Virus record (IMG/VR): IMGVR_UViG_3300007516_000112
Coordinates: 1 to 27,177 of that record
Reading direction: 5' to 3' (one strand)
Source of the DNA: a virus
Length of the DNA stretch: 27,177 nt
Shown: piece after piece, positions 14,227 through 25,622 of the stretch
How the letters are laid out: each line of letters starts with the position of its first letter
Numbering within the stretch: the first letter of the stretch is position 1
Position numbers and translations under genes: made by a program
The notes under the pieces: model-generated
Seen by the model: only the letters and a program-made list of their open reading frames with translations
What the model was told of the DNA's origin: nothing
The model's database searches: none

Positions 14227-14766
14227 ATGCCTAATCTGCATCAGAACATACAAAATCTTGGCGCTGGCGGTATGTATGGCACCAACACCACATATGGTGG
14301 AGGTGGCGTCCCCGTTGCTCGTTCTGAGATGGATGAGTCACGTATGGGTACTGGACGTCAACCGTCCGCAGAATATCCAGATGGTTACTTAGGAACAATT
14401 CGTTCACGACGCGATGATCGCGGTCGCCCATCTAGTACATCAGACAAAGTTTTAAACGGAATTAAAAACCGTATTGGACAACGGTCTTACCAACGCGGTG
14501 TTCACCGTGGAGAACGTATTGATCCAAGCGATTATTACTATCCATCTGGACTAGAAGCAGATCGTGGGATTAAAAGACAAATGCGCGGCGTTAAAGTAGG
14601 TAGCACAACGCTTACTAAAAAAAACGCAGATAATATTCAACTAGTTCCAGCTCCACATCTACCTAATGATGGTAAAGCAGGTCCTACAGTTAAAAGTGAT
14701 TCACCCGGTCAGATTAACAAACGCCGTGCAGAACAATGGGCACCTATGAAACCAAGGTATCGATAA
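14227..14766 (+). CDS. Gly/Arg-rich protein of unknown function, 179 aa
   Basis: First gene of an island of short polar proteins. The N-terminus is Gly-rich (LGAGGMYGTNTTYGGGG), followed by a basic middle with RSRRDDRGRP and YQRGVHRGERIDP, and a Lys/Arg tail ending MKPRYR. It lacks Cys and any recognisable domain and is probably disordered with strong positive charge. Expression is probably from the leaderless TATAAT promoter directly upstream. The stop overlaps the next ATG (TAATG). A DNA-binding or virion-internal role would fit the composition but is speculation. Confidence 0.65.
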   Translation: MPNLHQNIQNLGAGGMYGTNTTYGGGGVPVARSEMDESRMGTGRQPSAEYPDGYLGTIRSRRDDRGRPSSTSDKVLNGIKNRIGQRSYQRGVHRGERIDPSDYYYPSGLEADRGIKRQMRGVKVGSTTLTKKNADNIQLVPAPHLPNDGKAGPTVKSDSPGQINKRRAEQWAPMKPRYR

Positions 14767-16744: not shown

Positions 16745-16756
16745 TAGTATTCGGTC
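16745..16756 (+). promoter_or_regulatory. Leaderless promoter candidate TAGTAT
   Basis: TAGTAT (16745-16750) follows the TAG stop by two bases and precedes ATG 16757 by exactly six bases. There is no ribosome site before this ATG. Spacing to the stop and to the ATG is identical to the sites at 14215 and 18201. Confidence 0.45.
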
Positions 16757-17299
16757 ATGGTACTTGACCTTTCTACGTTAGCAAACAAAAAAGATGAACA
16801 TCGTATCCTTGTTTTGGCATGTAAAGACTGCTCCACAATGGAAGAAATTCCAGTTGATGAGCGCTACCCAATTAAAAACCAAGGTGATAACCCATACCTT
16901 GCTTTAGCTTTAGATAAACACCAACGCCCCCAACCACACTTAGGTGTGCTTTTTGACGTTGACTTTGCTGTGTGGATAAGCGACACAGGTCGCAAAAAGA
17001 TCCATGCTCAGGTACTTGAAGGTCTTGGCGGTAAGGGTCTTGGCGAAGACGTGTACGCAGCAAAAGATAATTACTCAGCAGATGCTATGACCTGTTTTCA
17101 AGCCCACAACAAGCCTGAAGGCCAATGCCCTGATTACAAATCAGGCGCTAAATTAATTAAAATTGATGTGATGAAACAAGAACGTCGTGATGCTGGGCTA
17201 TCGCAAGAAAAACTTCCGTCATTTTATTTGTGCGATTTCTGCCCGGTTAAAAGTTTTAACATGATGAAGAGCAACGAATTAAGAGGACTATACAAATGA
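16757..17299 (+). CDS. Cys-rich phage protein of unknown function, 180 aa
   Basis: Three Cys groups are visible: ACKDCST (21-27), CFQAHNKPEGQCPDYKSG (about 112-129) and CDFCPVKSF (157-165). With the His in QAHN these could form one or two zinc or Fe-S sites. Between the first two groups lies a folded region with PHLGVLFDVDFAVWIS and KIHAQVLEGLGGKGLGED. Similar C-x-x-HN-x-P-x-x-x-C-x-DY patterns are, from memory, known in actinophage proteins of unknown function. The gene likely starts leaderless and its stop overlaps the next ATG (ATGA), placing it at the head of the module with the proteasome-like protein. Confidence 0.68.
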   Translation: MVLDLSTLANKKDEHRILVLACKDCSTMEEIPVDERYPIKNQGDNPYLALALDKHQRPQPHLGVLFDVDFAVWISDTGRKKIHAQVLEGLGGKGLGEDVYAAKDNYSADAMTCFQAHNKPEGQCPDYKSGAKLIKIDVMKQERRDAGLSQEKLPSFYLCDFCPVKSFNMMKSNELRGLYK

Positions 17300-17613
17300 C
17301 AGAAGAAACAACTCCAGAGGTTGAAGTTGATACTTTAGAAAAAGTAAAAGCAGACGCTGAAACTGCGTTTATAATTATTAAAAGCAAAGACGGCACTTGG
17401 AAAGCCACCGTCGATGTTTCCGCGGCGTTTTTGATTGAGCGCCCAGCTACGCGTACTGACGTAAAGACTGGATCACGCGAAATTTATGATTTTTTGTCAG
17501 AAGATGACGTTGCTCGCTTTACTGCCGCAAAAATTTCAGCCCAAAATCAGACAGACACCGAGCGAGCAACCGCTGGTGTGAGGCATGCTTTATCCAATAG
17601 AGACATTCTGTAA
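17296..17613 (+). CDS. Small acidic protein of unknown function, 105 aa
   Basis: Starts in an ATGA overlap with the Cys-rich gene. The N-terminus is acidic (TEETTPEVEVDTLEKVKADA), followed by a strand-rich part AFIIIKSKDGTWKATVDVSA, an ERPATRTDVKTGSREIYDFL stretch and a C-terminal helix. It resembles a small alpha/beta domain. No known family was recognised. It is followed 18 bases later by the proteasome-like gene and may be functionally linked with it. Confidence 0.62.
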   Translation: MTEETTPEVEVDTLEKVKADAETAFIIIKSKDGTWKATVDVSAAFLIERPATRTDVKTGSREIYDFLSEDDVARFTAAKISAQNQTDTERATAGVRHALSNRDIL

Positions 17614-17631
17614 CTACATTAGGGAATCCTT

Positions 17632-18198
17632 ATGACAACGCTTGTTGCGGTTCAGGGTGACGGGTGGACGGTAATTGGATGCGACAGTCGTGCATCTGAT
17701 GAAGACGGCCGCTTTATGGAACTTGCTACCTCTAAAATTGTAGACAACAACGGTGTTTTACTTGCAGTCTCTGGCGCTTCACGTGGTGGAAACATTACAC
17801 AGTTTGGTTGGAAACCTCCTAAGCCACGTGTCAATGAAGACCTTGATGTATTTATGACTAAAAAATTTATTCCGTCAATGCGTAAAGCTTTTATTGCAGC
17901 TGGTTACGACGCAAAAGATGATGGGGACGCAGCTTGGCAAGACTCTAATTTAATAGTTTCAATACGCGGAGTTATTTACCCAGTGTTCAACGACTACTCG
18001 TGGGATCGAGAAGAGCGGGGCATTTATTACTCTGGTAGCGGAGGAGACGTTGCCTTGGGAGCACTGGAAGCGCTCGACTACAGAAAAGCCAAGTCCCCAG
18101 AAGGCGTAGAAAAATTAATACGCAAAGCAATAGAAATTGCTTGCAAACATGATATTTATTCTGGTGGAGAGATACACACCCATATTCAATACGAATAG
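17632..18198 (+). CDS. 20S proteasome beta / HslV-like Ntn hydrolase
   Basis: 188 residues. After removal of Met1, Thr2 becomes the N-terminal nucleophile (TTLVAV). The other active-site residues are present: Asp18 in IGCDSRAS (D17 of the family), Lys35 in ATSKIV (near K33, one residue off), the GSGG turn at 135-138 and D174/S177 in DIYSGG. The sheet elements GVLLAVSG and SNLIVSIRG fit the Ntn fold. There is no propeptide, as in HslV. Family members are threonine proteases working in ring complexes with an ATPase. No alpha subunit, ATPase or pupylation gene lies in the window, so it might use host partners or work alone. Ribosome site AGGGA precedes it. Confidence 0.8.
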   Translation: MTTLVAVQGDGWTVIGCDSRASDEDGRFMELATSKIVDNNGVLLAVSGASRGGNITQFGWKPPKPRVNEDLDVFMTKKFIPSMRKAFIAAGYDAKDDGDAAWQDSNLIVSIRGVIYPVFNDYSWDREERGIYYSGSGGDVALGALEALDYRKAKSPEGVEKLIRKAIEIACKHDIYSGGEIHTHIQYE

Positions 18199-18200
18199 TT

Positions 18201-18212
18201 TAGACTGTACTT
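18201..18212 (+). promoter_or_regulatory. Leaderless promoter candidate TAGACT
   Basis: TAGACT (18201-18206) starts two bases after the TAG stop of the proteasome-like gene and ends exactly six bases before ATG 18213, which has no ribosome site. It is the third junction with this layout. Confidence 0.45.
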
Positions 18213-19145
18213 ATGGACTTTTACGAGGCATTATCTGCGCGAGCAGTTCCCGTAAACATAGAGCCGTCCAATACATCTTATTTTAGCAAGCCAGAGATTG
18301 GTCTTGACCCCCGATTATTTCGTAACAACAAGTTAATCCCAGCCGTACGTAGTTCCGTACTTACTGTTTTATTTAATTATTTAGATTCCCTTTACAAAAG
18401 CTCAAACGCTTGGACGTTTGCTTGGCTAGCCGGTTCTGGAGTGTCGCATCAATGGGCAGCAAAACGGCTTCCAGGAGATTTAGATTGTTTGGTAGGAATT
18501 AACTACGAAGTGTTTCGTAGTTCTAACTTACAATTTACAGGTCTTAGCAACCAAGAGATTGCAAGCATGTTAAACGAAGGCTTTCGAACAGATTTGTGGC
18601 CTTTGACTGACAAGTTTATGGACGCGTTTGAGTTAACTTTTTACGTTAACGTACAGACCGATTTGTCAAAGATAAAGCCATACGCCGCTTATTCGTTAAT
18701 TGCAGACGACTGGCTAGTACAACCAACAATGGAGGAAGCACCAACAGATCCATCTTGGAATAAAAAAATTGAAAAAGATAAAAGCCAAGCAGCAGACATA
18801 ATTGCACGTTACGCAACCGCTTTAACTCATATTACAAATGCTCCCAACACGGCAATGCGCATAAACGCAGAACGAGCACTTCGTATGTCTGTTAAACAAG
18901 CATTAGAACTTTACGAAGAAATACACAAAGGAAGAAAATACGCGTTTAGCGAAGATGGTTCTGGGTACTTAGACTTTGCTAATTACCGTTGGCAAGCCGG
19001 TAAAGAATCCGGAATAGTCCAAGCATTGGGCAAATTAAAAGAAATTGCAGACTTATCCGACAAAGACTTTGCCGCCTCTACCTATGGGGTAGAGTTACCT
19101 GATGTATCAACTTTGATTCGTCGGGCTGCTACACGCAATAACTAA
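18213..19145 (+). CDS. Nucleotidyltransferase-fold protein
   Basis: 310 residues. The segment AWLAGSGVSHQW (71-81, G74-S75) followed by RLPGDLDCLVGINY (85-98, with D89 and D91) is the GS...DxD core of the polymerase-beta-type nucleotidyltransferase superfamily. A later acidic residue in the FELTFYVNV strand region would be the third metal ligand. The C-terminal 150 residues are helical (IARYATALTHITNAPNTAMR). The substrate, whether tRNA, protein, small molecule or modified nucleotide, is not clear. It probably has its own leaderless start. It precedes a HAD-like and a TGT-like gene. Confidence 0.75.
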   Translation: MDFYEALSARAVPVNIEPSNTSYFSKPEIGLDPRLFRNNKLIPAVRSSVLTVLFNYLDSLYKSSNAWTFAWLAGSGVSHQWAAKRLPGDLDCLVGINYEVFRSSNLQFTGLSNQEIASMLNEGFRTDLWPLTDKFMDAFELTFYVNVQTDLSKIKPYAAYSLIADDWLVQPTMEEAPTDPSWNKKIEKDKSQAADIIARYATALTHITNAPNTAMRINAERALRMSVKQALELYEEIHKGRKYAFSEDGSGYLDFANYRWQAGKESGIVQALGKLKEIADLSDKDFAASTYGVELPDVSTLIRRAATRNN

Positions 19146-19169
19146 AACAACGAAAACGGAGCATTAACT

Positions 19170-19622
19170 GTGGCGGTTTTGATTTACGTAGAGGGCGTAT
19201 TGTCTAGAAAAAATACCCCGATTAAAGATGGTCTTGGTCTTGTAAGAACCATTCAAGAAAAGCATGCAGTTATCTTGCTGTGCGAAGACAAAGCAAAAAC
19301 AGAGCATTGGCTACGAGAAAACAGACTTGCCCGAATTGATAACATAGTTGATTACGACATTCCAGCGCCCGGTGATGACGTAGAACTACGTCAGGCTGAG
19401 TACTGCCGTTCGCTTGGCCCAATTGATTACGCAATAACTTCTAATACGGATTTAGCCTCTAAACTATTAGAACAAGGGTTCAGGGTACTTTTATTCCTAG
19501 ATCCAATCTATTTAGACCACAGATATCGCCCAGACACAGTGGACGGTCGACGCAGTTGGTCAGACATTAAAACAGAATTGAATAAGCAAGCTGACATGTA
19601 TTTAGATGACCCCCGTAAATGA
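19170..19622 (+). CDS. HAD-like protein lacking the catalytic Asp pair
   Basis: 150 residues, GTG start with GGAG eight bases upstream. The N-terminal strand VLIYVEGVL sits where HAD phosphatases have DxDG; the nucleophile position is Tyr and the second is Glu. The rest fits the fold: a helix DGLGLVRTIQ, strand HAVILLC with following helix (motif II region), AITSNTDLASKLLEQGFRVL (motif III/IV region) and LFLDPIY. Phosphatase chemistry seems impossible, so it may serve as a binding or scaffold protein. The family call is from pattern only. Its stop overlaps the next start (ATGA), so it is co-translated with the TGT-like protein. Confidence 0.62.
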   Translation: MAVLIYVEGVLSRKNTPIKDGLGLVRTIQEKHAVILLCEDKAKTEHWLRENRLARIDNIVDYDIPAPGDDVELRQAEYCRSLGPIDYAITSNTDLASKLLEQGFRVLLFLDPIYLDHRYRPDTVDGRRSWSDIKTELNKQADMYLDDPRK

Positions 19623-21085
19623 AGATTATCTATTTAGGGGCAGAAGTCCCAAGTAACAGGCTACTTTTAGGGTCTGCTGGAGCACGAGCTGTGGGCGTTA
19701 GTTACTGGAGATTGATGAAGCGCGGTCTACCAAAGACCAAGATTTACCTTTTAAAGAACTACTTTCCAGAAAACATGGAGATTTTAGTTCACCCAGGAAT
19801 ACCTAAAACTCAAGACTTAGGCAGGACTGAACTAGAAGAATTTGCCGCGGACTACGAAGAGTTCATCATAGACAACTTAGATAGAATTACCTACTTCACA
19901 GAATTAACCCACTTTCAGGTGGGTCCAGATTTCATACAAGATCAAAGAGATACCGTTTGGTCTGAAGTGCCTCCCTCTAAATTTCTGCCTGTTTGGAGCC
20001 CTGAGAGTGGGCACAGAGGGCTTGAAGAGATGGCGAGAAAGTACTTAGATATTGCGCTACCGGGCGAGGCTATAGAGGACGCTGTATGGCTGTCTAACAC
20101 GGCTAGGAAGCTCACCACCAACGAAGGAACCCGATTCCATGCTTTGGGTACAGCCCGACCAGACAACCTGCGTCAGGTGTCTGTAGAGACCGCTTCAACG
20201 TTGTCTTGGCTATCACCTATGACTAGGGGTGAGACGATAGTTTGGGACGGTACACGGCTTGTCCGATACCCCAAGAGCATGAAAGAGCAAGCCCGCCCAC
20301 GCCACAAGGCTGTGTACGAAAAGGCTGGTTTAGATTTTGACAAGATCGTTTCAGATGATGCGCAAGAACTTTGCAAATTAGCAGTATGGTCATTTGACCA
20401 ATTAGAGATGAGGTTGACTGTGGGAAATAACTCGAACATATACGATAGTTTCGAGGATCCAGCTGGTGACGATTACGCGGAAACTAACCCCGCAATATCG
20501 GATAGGTTGGGGGTTGAGATGCGGAAACTTCAACCGCGAGATCCGCGGGATATGGGCAATTTACCCGTCTTTGGATTCGATGTTAAGACTGTTATTGAGA
20601 AGGATGACGCAGGTAACGATGTACTTAAAGATGTGCCCGTAGTACAGTCACGAGACACCAGTTTAAGACAATGCGATACGTGTTTTGTTGCGTCAAATTG
20701 TCCCGCTTTTAAACCACAATCAGTGTGCGCATTTAAATTACCAGTAGAGGTAAAGACTAAAGATCAACTTAAGAGTTTAATTAACGCAATCATTGAAATG
20801 CAGGGTCAAAGAGTTGCTTTTATGCGATTTGCGGAAGAACTGAACGGCGGATACGCTGACCCAAATGTCAGCCAAGAGATTGATCGGTTGTTTAAATTGA
20901 TTAAAACTACCAAGGAATTGGATGACTCAAGAGAGTTCATTAGAATGACCGTTGAACGCCAAGGATCAGCCGGAGTACTGTCCCAAATCTTTGGAGAGAA
21001 GGCTAATATTTTGAAAGAAATACCTAATGGAGGGCTTGATGAAGACACCACTACACAGATTATTAAAGACGCAATAGAGGGTTAG
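19619..21085 (+). CDS. TGT/DpdA-like TIM-barrel protein with C-terminal Cys cluster
   Basis: 488 residues. Residues 1-260 follow the order seen in tRNA-guanine transglycosylase-like barrels: strand KIIYLGAE, FIIDNLDRITYFTELT (82-97), FLPVWSPESGHRGLEEMARK (122-141), YLDIALPG, FHALGTARPDNLRQ (173-186), ETASTLSWL (190-198) and ETIVWDG. The strand-then-SxW element resembles the SVDSTSW site of DpdA-type enzymes that place 7-deazaguanine bases in DNA, but the usual Asp nucleophile is not obvious (Glu190 is near). Residues 352-370 hold CDTC, CPAF and C370, a likely zinc or Fe-S site, followed by a helical domain. No preQ0 synthesis genes are visible. Start overlaps the previous stop. Fold call moderate, activity unproven. 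Confidence 0.6.
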   Translation: MKIIYLGAEVPSNRLLLGSAGARAVGVSYWRLMKRGLPKTKIYLLKNYFPENMEILVHPGIPKTQDLGRTELEEFAADYEEFIIDNLDRITYFTELTHFQVGPDFIQDQRDTVWSEVPPSKFLPVWSPESGHRGLEEMARKYLDIALPGEAIEDAVWLSNTARKLTTNEGTRFHALGTARPDNLRQVSVETASTLSWLSPMTRGETIVWDGTRLVRYPKSMKEQARPRHKAVYEKAGLDFDKIVSDDAQELCKLAVWSFDQLEMRLTVGNNSNIYDSFEDPAGDDYAETNPAISDRLGVEMRKLQPRDPRDMGNLPVFGFDVKTVIEKDDAGNDVLKDVPVVQSRDTSLRQCDTCFVASNCPAFKPQSVCAFKLPVEVKTKDQLKSLINAIIEMQGQRVAFMRFAEELNGGYADPNVSQEIDRLFKLIKTTKELDDSREFIRMTVERQGSAGVLSQIFGEKANILKEIPNGGLDEDTTTQIIKDAIEG

Positions 21086-24113: not shown

Positions 24114-24300
24114 GAATTTCCTTTGTAAAAAAACACTTTAAACTAAAAGGATCCCTTGGGGTAACTTTGTCACAGTCATAACACATCTCCCAAGGTATGA
24201 GCCGATGGTGAGTATCCAAGTAATGATCTACGGCTTCTATACCTTCAGCGTTGTGCAATTCAATACATTTATCCTTTAGACTCTGCATCAAGTCCTGCAT
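24100..24300 (-). CDS. Small Cys-containing protein, 66 aa
   Basis: ATG at 24300 has the strong ribosome site GGAGGT seven bases upstream. The product is a helix QDLMQSLKDKCIELHNAEG, then DHYLDTHHRLIPWEMCYDCD with a CxxC pair and nearby His residues, and a further Cys in SLKCFF. Cys40, Cys43 and a downstream Cys could hold zinc. It overlaps the 3' end of the methyltransferase frame by 32 bases. Function unknown. Confidence 0.6.
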   Translation of the reverse strand: MQDLMQSLKDKCIELHNAEGIEAVDHYLDTHHRLIPWEMCYDCDKVTPRDPFSLKCFFTKEIHEQK

Positions 24301-24925
24301 TGTTTACCTCCACTATACGATTAATGATCCATTGAACTACTGGTACAGCAACAGCGTTTCCCATCTGCTTGTAACGTTGAGAGTCCGATTGACTATCCGT
24401 CCAACCATCAGGAAATCCTTGTAAGCGCTCGCATTCTAGCGGAGTAAGGCGACGAACAACGGCATCTTCATACGCCAGCGTGTCCTTAGCACGCTTTGCG
24501 TTAAGCGTTGGTGCTATTTCTTCTTTAGGAAAATCGTACAACTCAAAGTTTCCAATGTGTGCCACGCCGTGACCCCCAACAGTATCGATAGTAAACATAG
24601 GATCTTCGGGATTTCCGTAACCCTTTCCTTGTGGTCCAGCCGTGTCACTACGCCCTATTACCGTTCCTTGTATTGGATACGCTAGCATAGGCATATTGTT
24701 ACCACCAGTTCCCATCCGTGTTTGCAAAGTGTTAATCACCCCTCCTTGAATACGAATATCATCTACTCGATTTCCGTAAAAGATTAATACTGTGGCACGA
24801 GTGTCACCGTTATTATCAAATGCATTAAGGGTTGGCGTAACTTCACCATCTACCCATGTCTCAAAATCATCCACTGTCTGAGCTCTCCTACTCTTACTGA
24901 ACCACAAGGTGACCACTGTCCACAT
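24269..24925 (-). CDS. dcm: Cytosine-5 DNA methyltransferase, C-terminal part (frameshifted)
   Basis: This frame holds the final motifs of a C5 methyltransferase: a variable target-recognition region (with TPTLNAFDNNGDTRA and TLQTRMGTGGNNMPML), motif IX RRLTPLECERLQGFPDGW and motif X with RYKQMGNAVAVPVVQWI. The N-terminal motifs I-VIII lie upstream in another frame that stops at 24894. An ATG at 24925 begins this frame but has no ribosome site, so separate translation is doubtful. One base removed near 24899 would join the two parts smoothly (GHLVV then SKSRRAQ). It is thus best seen as the 3' half of one gene, broken or read with a +1 shift. Confidence 0.75.
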   Translation of the reverse strand: MWTVVTLWFSKSRRAQTVDDFETWVDGEVTPTLNAFDNNGDTRATVLIFYGNRVDDIRIQGGVINTLQTRMGTGGNNMPMLAYPIQGTVIGRSDTAGPQGKGYGNPEDPMFTIDTVGGHGVAHIGNFELYDFPKEEIAPTLNAKRAKDTLAYEDAVVRRLTPLECERLQGFPDGWTDSQSDSQRYKQMGNAVAVPVVQWIINRIVEVNNAGLDAESKG

Positions 24926-25622
24926 CTTGGTTAACTACTGATGACTTATGATAAATTTCCGCAGGAATAGTGTTTGCTACTTCTCTTCCATTCCCCGCTC
25001 TAGTGCTAAGTGGAGTAGCACTGGCAATGACTTTCCTCTTTTTGTCGCCCGCCTTAATATGCCCTCGCATGCCCTCGATGAGAGCAAGTACTTCTGAAGG
25101 TGCGCTCCCGTCGTCTCCAAGACATCCAACAATGAAGACACGACGCCTTCTTTGGGCGACTCCAAAGTACTGAGCGTCAAGAACCCTGTATGCGATCCCA
25201 TACCCGCGCTCAGCCAACGCTTGGATGACGGTTCCCATATCTCTTCCGTCGTTAGATGACAATAAACCGGGGACGTTTTCAAGGACGAACCACTTCGCTT
25301 TGGTTTCGTCGAGGATACGACAGATTTCCCAGAAGAGTCCAGAGCGAGATCCAGCGAGCCCTGCGCGTTTTCCTGCAACGCTAAGGTCTTGGCATGGGAA
25401 GCCTCCGACAATAATTCCTTCACTACCATTGAATCCGAGTTCTCTAAGTTGATCACCTGTTACATCCTTTACATCGTTAATTAGCGTTGAGTTTGGAAAT
25501 TGTTTTGCGAGCACCGCTCGTGCGTGTTTATCGATTTCACATGAAGCAACCACTGGTACACCAGCAGTCTCCAACGCTAAATCAAATCCACCTACACCAG
25601 CAAATAATGATACGGCTTTCAT
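24894..25622 (-). CDS. dcm: Cytosine-5 DNA methyltransferase, N-terminal part (frameshifted)
   Basis: 242 residues that begin with motif I LFAGVGGFDLAL (6-17), then motif IV GGFPCQDLSVAGKR (73-86, catalytic Cys77), motif VI ENVPGLL (115-121) and motif VIII QRRRRVFIVG (157-166). These suffice for AdoMet binding and catalysis, but motifs IX and X follow only in the next frame. The enzyme methylates cytosine at C5, protecting DNA against host restriction; specificity is not readable. The weak ribosome site AAAGGAT precedes ATG 25622, which overlaps the stop of the preceding gene. Frame loss lies in the variable region, where phage genes tolerate change, or may be a sequencing error. Confidence 0.85.
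   Translation of the reverse strand: MKAVSLFAGVGGFDLALETAGVPVVASCEIDKHARAVLAKQFPNSTLINDVKDVTGDQLRELGFNGSEGIIVGGFPCQDLSVAGKRAGLAGSRSGLFWEICRILDETKAKWFVLENVPGLLSSNDGRDMGTVIQALAERGYGIAYRVLDAQYFGVAQRRRRVFIVGCLGDDGSAPSEVLALIEGMRGHIKAGDKKRKVIASATPLSTRAGNGREVANTIPAEIYHKSSVVNQDVDSGHLVVQ

Follow-up and report, generated by a model that had tools for sequence, protein, structure and literature searches.

A conserved actinophage gene block around a DpdA-like protein that lacks the nucleophilic aspartate

In the tRNA-guanine transglycosylases (TGTs), two aspartates act as general acid/base and as nucleophile; DpdA is a transglycosylase that inserts 7-deazaguanines into DNA. The known DpdAs are encoded next to queC, queD, queE or folE and carry a DSGAF motif together with the nucleophile motif S-x-D-S-S-S-W. 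In human QTRT1 the two aspartates are Asp105 and Asp279, and in the eukaryotic TGT this subunit is paired with the noncatalytic QTRT2 (PMC6165067). The focus of the present work is a further TGT-like protein, encoded in a 27,177-base stretch of viral DNA (IMG/VR record IMGVR_UViG_3300007516_000112) which is a fragment of the virus record and is referred to below, in its whole length, as the window. Its gene is the last of a row of six, for which a preliminary description had suggested a pathway of base modification or anti-defence that includes its own protease. It is reasonably probable, though by no means assured, that the window instead contains the core block of a group of actinophages, organised around a nucleophile-less DpdA that has been retained to serve a non-catalytic function, probably the binding of nucleic acids.

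The DpdA-like barrel and its origin

Relatives of the TGT-like protein were gathered by tblastn and by scans of IMG/VR, and the fetched loci were examined by profile searches. The protein matches phrog_887 at 1.2e-50, and the profile of its family aligns with that of DpdA in hhalign at 98.9% (E 3e-17). The AF2 model reaches a pLDDT of ~90 over residues 1-268, corresponding to the barrel, and is uncertain in the linker and the C-terminus; in a Foldseek search against viral models it matches the DpdAs of phages Megan and Sonali at ~1e-6. A fold search of the PDB with the same model returned generic TIM barrels, none of them a TGT by name; PDB sequence searches with the profiles of the TGT-like protein and of the nucleotidyltransferase (NT) and HAD-like proteins encoded upstream gave nothing usable, and that with the DpdA profile gave spurious matches only. 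Together with four invariant cysteines in the C-terminal region (the Cys4 domain, see below), the model and the DpdA matches bear out the TGT-like barrel with a Cys cluster that had been noticed at the outset.

Compared with the DpdAs of phages 9g, Sonali, Knocker and Megan (Hutinet et al. 2019, PMC6884629), the family shares a homologous barrel, the HG-motif His, which 117 of 121 members retain, and, in basal members, the sequence LDSGA[YF]; it differs in the fused Cys4 domain, in the lack of que genes and in the loss of the nucleophilic Asp. Indeed, among 121 distinct members the nucleophile column contains S in 85, A in 23, H in 9, L in 2, G in 1, T in 1 and D in none, whereas all seven DpdAs aligned with the family have Asp at this position; the residue of the window is S193. 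The general acid/base column (DSGxF) contains D in 31/121, mainly in basal members, and otherwise mostly H or Y (H58 in the window); this second Asp is also gone in most freshwater members. Since the basal members retain the DSGA motif (VFLDSGAYT) and have the nucleophile alone altered (SVASTSW), the nucleophile was probably lost first. The dN/dS values, 0.02-0.07 for the dead barrel and 0.07 for the Cys domain, indicate strong purifying selection; the linker is looser. By its sequence the TGT-like protein descends from a phage DpdA, and it appears to be a pseudoenzyme; the catalytic residue being lost, the enzyme label that it now bears is almost certainly mistaken.

The proposed pathway, active in base modification or anti-defence and equipped with its own protease, finds some footing in the homology to DpdA and in the intact active site of the Ntn hydrolase encoded in the window, but the nucleophile is missing from all 121 members and no que genes were found: QueC occurs in 0/24 block-bearing virus contigs, and que probes had no match among the open reading frames (ORFs) of three near-complete contigs, though the host might supply preQ0. 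Moreover, most relatives show no linkage of the protease gene to the block, and its presence is optional (see below). PADLOC gave no match, which leaves the anti-defence part unsupported, although a missing match does not exclude such a role. Taken as a whole, this pathway has to be regarded as highly improbable.

The origin of the protein is illuminated by the Bacteroides phage BS162P1, by the human gut phage MT835482 and by an IMG/VR contig (L333), in which a single cluster encodes QueC and QueE together with a stand-alone Cys-domain protein and a DpdA whose motifs are intact (DSGAF, and a nucleophile motif that contains Asp). In the tree of the barrels, the dead members are monophyletic (98/94), and their sister is the DpdA pair of BS162P1 and L333 (96/84); the separate Cys protein carries the same Cys4 domain. 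BS162P1 further shares TerL (the large terminase; 3e-68), the portal, the major capsid protein (MCP), PolA, RecA and SpoVS with the actinophage lineage, and part of the gene order (PolA, RecA, SpoVS, DpdA/Cys). The islands of BS162P1, MT835482 and L333 differ from the locus of the window in the intact motifs, the unfused Cys protein, the presence of que genes and the lack of detected partner genes of the block. It is the combination of intact DpdA, separate Cys protein and que genes in the sister group which suggests a modification enzyme turned pseudoenzyme; the simplest history comprises one fusion to the neighbouring Cys protein and one catalytic loss, the latter before the actinophage lineage radiated. 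The que genes either disappeared from this lineage or were absent from the start. As a separate observation, the DpdA of MT835482 (L160, 6518-8716) contains an apparent intein inside the catalytic motif (SSDS / TTW), active sites being common places for such elements.

The gene block and the lineage that carries it

The features of the block in the window, and of the sequences preceding two of its genes, are the following.

16745-16750, + strand: -10-like hexamer TAGTAT, 6 nt upstream of the ATG of the Cys-rich gene, in a leaderless layout
16757-17299, + strand: Cys-rich protein of 180 aa, the first gene of the block, with two CxxC pairs and C113/H117/C124
17296-17613, + strand: small acidic protein of 105 aa, overlapping the Cys-rich gene by 4 nt
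17632-18198, + strand: HslV/proteasome-like putative Ntn hydrolase of 188 aa, an optional insertion in the clade of the window, outside the core block
18201-18206, + strand: -10-like hexamer TAGACT, 6 nt upstream of the NT ATG, a predicted leaderless promoter
18213-19145, + strand: Polβ-type nucleotidyltransferase-like (NT) protein of 310 aa, with GSG...DLD and E140
19170-19622, + strand: putative HAD-like pseudoenzyme of 150 aa, with Tyr6 at the position of the motif-I nucleophile; fold from AF2
19619-21085, + strand: TGT/DpdA-like putative pseudoenzyme with fused Cys4 domain, 488 aa, assigned from family, fold and residue evidence
19619-20422, + strand: DpdA-like barrel of the latter (residues 1-268), with H58 at the general-base position and S193 at the nucleophile position (Asp in active DpdAs)
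20654-21082, + strand: C-terminal Cys4/helical domain, with Cys codons at 20672-20728 (CDTC-x5-CP-x7-C)

All six ORFs are thus adjacent and on the same strand, as first described. The translational coupling proposed for the last two genes is likewise consistent with their 4-nt overlap (ATGA), an arrangement found in 48 of 109 relatives, with another overlap in a further 20 (68/109 for overlaps of any size).

The conservation of this arrangement was assessed on those TGT-like genes, 109 distinct ones, for which at least 4.5 kb of upstream sequence was available. The relatives, from 93% down to ~30% identity, come from freshwater and soil contigs and from Streptomyces phages such as BRock and GiJojo (~33%), and in all the fetched loci the profile searches recover a constant order: Cys-rich gene, acidic gene, a variable slot, NT, HAD-like gene, TGT-like gene. 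Near the TGT-like gene, the Cys-rich and the HAD-like genes are found in 109/109 cases, the NT gene in 107/109 and the acidic gene, searched for with a hidden Markov model, in 81/109. Three near-complete freshwater contigs encode TerL, portal, major capsid, sheath and tube proteins with matches in BRock, and the block-bearing phages form one deep lineage with genomes of roughly 95-112 kb. The Cys-rich, acidic, NT, HAD-like and TGT-like genes are a vertically kept core block of this large actinophage lineage; for these five genes the association, which had been offered as an inference from order only, goes beyond the order seen in one window, and the neighbourhood holds together in distant phages with the exception of the proteasome-like gene.

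Synteny, however, can be kept for reasons other than a common function. Since the order of PolA, WhiB, Cas4, RuvC, SpoVS and the block recurs in BRock, and is partly kept in BS162P1, part of the synteny of the block is simply vertical inheritance. That the five genes are functionally unrelated, and co-located through the generally conserved gene order of the lineage, is possible on these grounds, and the more so because endolysin, peptidase and glycosyltransferase genes are inserted within the block of some members; yet neither the Cys-rich nor the HAD-like gene is absent from the vicinity of the TGT-like gene in any of the 109 loci, at identities down to ~30%, and the HAD-like and TGT-like genes overlap in most of them, whereas the neighbouring ribonucleotide reductase and HslV-like genes come and go. 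We consider such a lack of functional connection doubtful. A functional link among the five core genes is supported, and, given the share of vertical inheritance in their synteny, not proven.

The composition of the block varies in a number of members, and the block serves as a spot for insertions. In Streptomyces phages (L133/L134) an endolysin gene lies between the acidic and NT genes; one locus (L040) has an M15-like peptidase gene and a glycosyltransferase-like gene between the NT and HAD-like genes, where L044 and L053 show a gap of equal size; and a divergent group (L222, L217, L219) has a reduced block with the Cys-rich, HAD-like and TGT-like genes, in which the nucleotidyltransferase was not detected. 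A pattern scan of genome contigs gave 115 pattern matches, and none was confirmed as a relative.

Partner proteins, promoters and the HslV-like gene

For the Cys-rich, acidic and HAD-like proteins, searches of Pfam, PHROGs and NCBIfam brought up no family match of significance. The preliminary description had listed a possible metal-binding protein followed by a small acidic one; both ORFs are present, and in the first of them six Cys and one His are kept in 117 relatives (one of these positions in 115), so that it probably binds metal. The acidic protein is fast-evolving, with a dN/dS of 0.17-0.28. The DxD nucleotidyltransferase is upheld by the pattern GS...DLD with a third carboxylate: the G, the S, D89 and D91 are found in 122/122 relatives, as is E or D at position 140, and this conservation makes an active NT likely. 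No known family is matched above threshold (DUF6932 is reached weakly, at E=0.0013, under the cut-off), nor is any PDB sequence; on its residues, the NT is apparently the sole intact enzyme of the core block.

The HAD-like protein had been described as having a HAD-like fold without nucleophile. The loss of the motif-I Asp is clear, this residue being Tyr6 in the window and absent in 112/114 relatives (Asp in 2/114), and the protein is under purifying selection (dN/dS 0.03-0.1). As to the fold, the AF2 model (pLDDT 86) has HAD-domain matches at a TMq of ~0.5-0.6, the phosphatase domain of T4 PNKP being among the best at ~0.6; no E value lies under 1.6e-3, and Rossmann-like folds other than HAD reach similar scores, so that a HAD fold is likely rather than proven.

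The leaderless layout claimed for two genes of the row, a TANNNT hexamer 6 nt before the ATG of both the Cys-rich and the NT gene, recurs in the relatives. Of 123 distinct loci, 107 have TANNNT at a distance of 6 or 7 nt before the ATG of the NT gene, TATAAT and TAGAAT being the commonest forms, against ~5% in shuffled sequences, and Shine-Dalgarno-like sequences precede 14% of the NT starts; before the Cys-rich gene, TANNNT is found in 59/120 relatives, against 7% in shuffles. The NT, HAD-like and TGT-like genes thus seem to be preceded by a leaderless promoter conserved across the lineage. Elsewhere in the window, one other ORF of at least 150 aa (14227-14766) has TATAAT 6 nt before its ATG, and no further such ORF is present.

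The HslV-like protein matches the Pfam Proteasome family (3.4e-07) and phrog_1040, the peptidase HslV family (1.3e-23). Its start (M-T-T) and residues D18, K35 and S136 are invariant, or nearly so, among relatives, and are those expected for the Ntn fold with a complete active site, as had been suggested. It is homologous to the phrog_1040 proteins and keeps the Thr/Asp/Lys/Ser active-site residues; it differs in being a single-gene phage homologue, optional and unlinked to the block, which falls far short of the NCBIfam equivalog cut-offs for HslV and proteasome beta (20-25 bits against 137-224). The protease does not follow the block: its gene lies within it in 8/109 loci, solely in the window's own clade, is carried anywhere by 3 of 20 large block-bearing contigs, and stands ~15 kb from the TGT-like gene in the other genomes where positions were compared; in the window, the NT promoter intervenes between it and the NT, HAD-like and TGT-like genes. 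A separate phage family without the block, as the source of the contigs with HslV relatives, is not borne out, 14 of 15 large contigs fetched through their HslV gene also carrying the TGT-like gene; the HslV-like gene is on this account an optional gene of the same lineage. Being optional and mostly outside the block, the protease is no part of the core, and is removed from the module proposed for this locus.

The remaining genes of the window include those for a DNA polymerase, for RecA-like, WhiB-like and Cas4-like proteins and for a class II ribonucleotide reductase. On the - strand, a C5-cytosine methyltransferase is apparently split between two ORFs (24269-24925 and 24894-25622) which overlap by 32 bases in different frames, the N-terminal half carrying PCQ and the C-terminal half matching DNA_methylase; this may be a natural split, a programmed frameshift or a sequence error. 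In BS162P1 (L138, 1149-4379) and in DSL-LC01 (L132, 1222-4184), AAA ATPase genes are each followed by a CobT-VWA/cobalamin-biosynthesis-like gene.

The Cys4 domain and the possible role of the block

The four Cys are invariant across the fused TGT-like family, the separate Cys protein of the Bacteroides phages and a set of proteins from Tsukamurella, Gordonia and Rhodococcus phages (L136, L161-L166), which are encoded directly upstream of the large terminase and several of which are annotated as terminase small subunit. These proteins, belonging to phrog_6902 and phrog_16015 (Tsukamurella TIN2, Gordonia Woes, GMA7 and GordTnk2, Rhodococcus Mbo2), share with the block protein the Cys4/helical C-terminal domain (hhalign 89%, E 2e-6); they differ in having another N-terminal domain, which does not align with the barrel (1%), and in the location of their genes, beside TerL. 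The presence of the domain in terminase-adjacent proteins suggests a DNA-related task.

It is also the basis for supposing that the pseudo-DpdA with its Cys4 domain is a small-terminase-like protein of packaging recognition, the Cys4 domain contacting the packaging machinery and the dead barrel binding phage DNA. A Foldseek match of the TGT-like model to the terminase small subunit of Gordonia phage Jumbo (6.6e-6) fits this supposition, as does the finding that no small terminase is annotated in the BRock stretches examined. On the other hand, the label of terminase small subunit is itself probably positional; the TGT-like gene lies tens of kb from TerL in G001, G002, G004 and BRock; and the Cys protein of the Bacteroides and gut phages is encoded within the que/DpdA island, away from TerL. 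The conserved small genes found just upstream of TerL in BRock and in the freshwater contigs are candidates for the true small terminase, and it is their presence, together with the unaligned N-termini, that lowers the packaging role to an alternative, which we hold to be unlikely.

A further alternative is an RNA-directed module, in which the NT would modify the ends of tRNA or other RNA and the dead TGT barrel would serve as RNA-binding subunit, in the way that the noncatalytic QTRT2 is paired with QTRT1. QTRT2 (PMC6165067), a TGT-fold protein retained after the loss of its catalytic residues, is a precedent for a dead TGT subunit; the catalytic residues of the NT are intact, the T4 PNKP phosphatase domain is one of the HADs that the HAD-like model resembles, and BRock encodes many tRNAs and RNA ligases; but the window has no tRNA gene despite a complete block, the nearest active relatives of the barrel are DNA-type DpdAs rather than tRNA TGTs, and the NT has no confident known family. 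The resemblance to QTRT2 is one of principle only, since QTRT2 partners an active TGT, whereas no active TGT or DpdA partner is seen for the block protein. An RNA-directed role thus appears rather unlikely, somewhat more so than one in packaging.

In the account which we prefer, a phage DpdA barrel has fused with a neighbouring Cys4 protein and has lost its nucleophilic Asp, most simply once, before the radiation of the lineage; the dead barrel and the Cys4 domain, together with the pseudo-HAD, would form a nucleic-acid-binding scaffold, of which the nucleotidyltransferase may be the catalytic partner, the three genes being transcribed from the conserved leaderless promoter and the proteasome-like protease travelling as optional cargo. 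The fold assignment, the loss of the nucleophile, the monophyly, the synteny and the promoter motif were obtained by computation; that the dead barrel binds nucleic acid, and that the five proteins act jointly, is what we infer. Several points weigh against this account. The identity of the DpdA nucleophile rests on the invariance of the motif and on what is known of TGTs; the direct profile alignment of DpdA with the E. coli TGT is weak, its register fitting at DSG and being one residue off at the nucleophile. AF2 confidence is low for the Cys domain, and the E values of the HAD-like fold are those given above. BS162P1 has no detectable NT, HAD-like, Cys-rich or acidic gene, and adjacency within a conserved long-range order is by itself no proof of a shared pathway.

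A literature search of incomplete coverage found no paper dealing with a phage DpdA devoid of catalysis or with the five-gene block; in public records the proteins of BRock and GiJojo are labelled queuine tRNA-ribosyltransferase or DpdA-like transglycosylase. As chemistry by the known mechanism is ruled out by their sequences, DNA modification should not be inferred from proteins of this type. The stepwise path is visible when the Bacteroides and gut phages, whose enzyme is intact and whose Cys protein is encoded separately alongside, are compared with the actinophages, in which the protein is fused, nucleophile-less and strongly conserved. More tentatively, a base-modification enzyme may have been turned once, by fusion to the Cys4 domain, into an essential non-catalytic DNA-binding protein, which would now work with a pseudo-HAD and an active NT in an undescribed machine of nucleic-acid recognition (for example in packaging or end recognition) in hundreds of actinophages. 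The case lets one ask what a DNA-modifying barrel does once catalysis is gone, and, the Streptomyces relatives being culturable, this question is directly testable.

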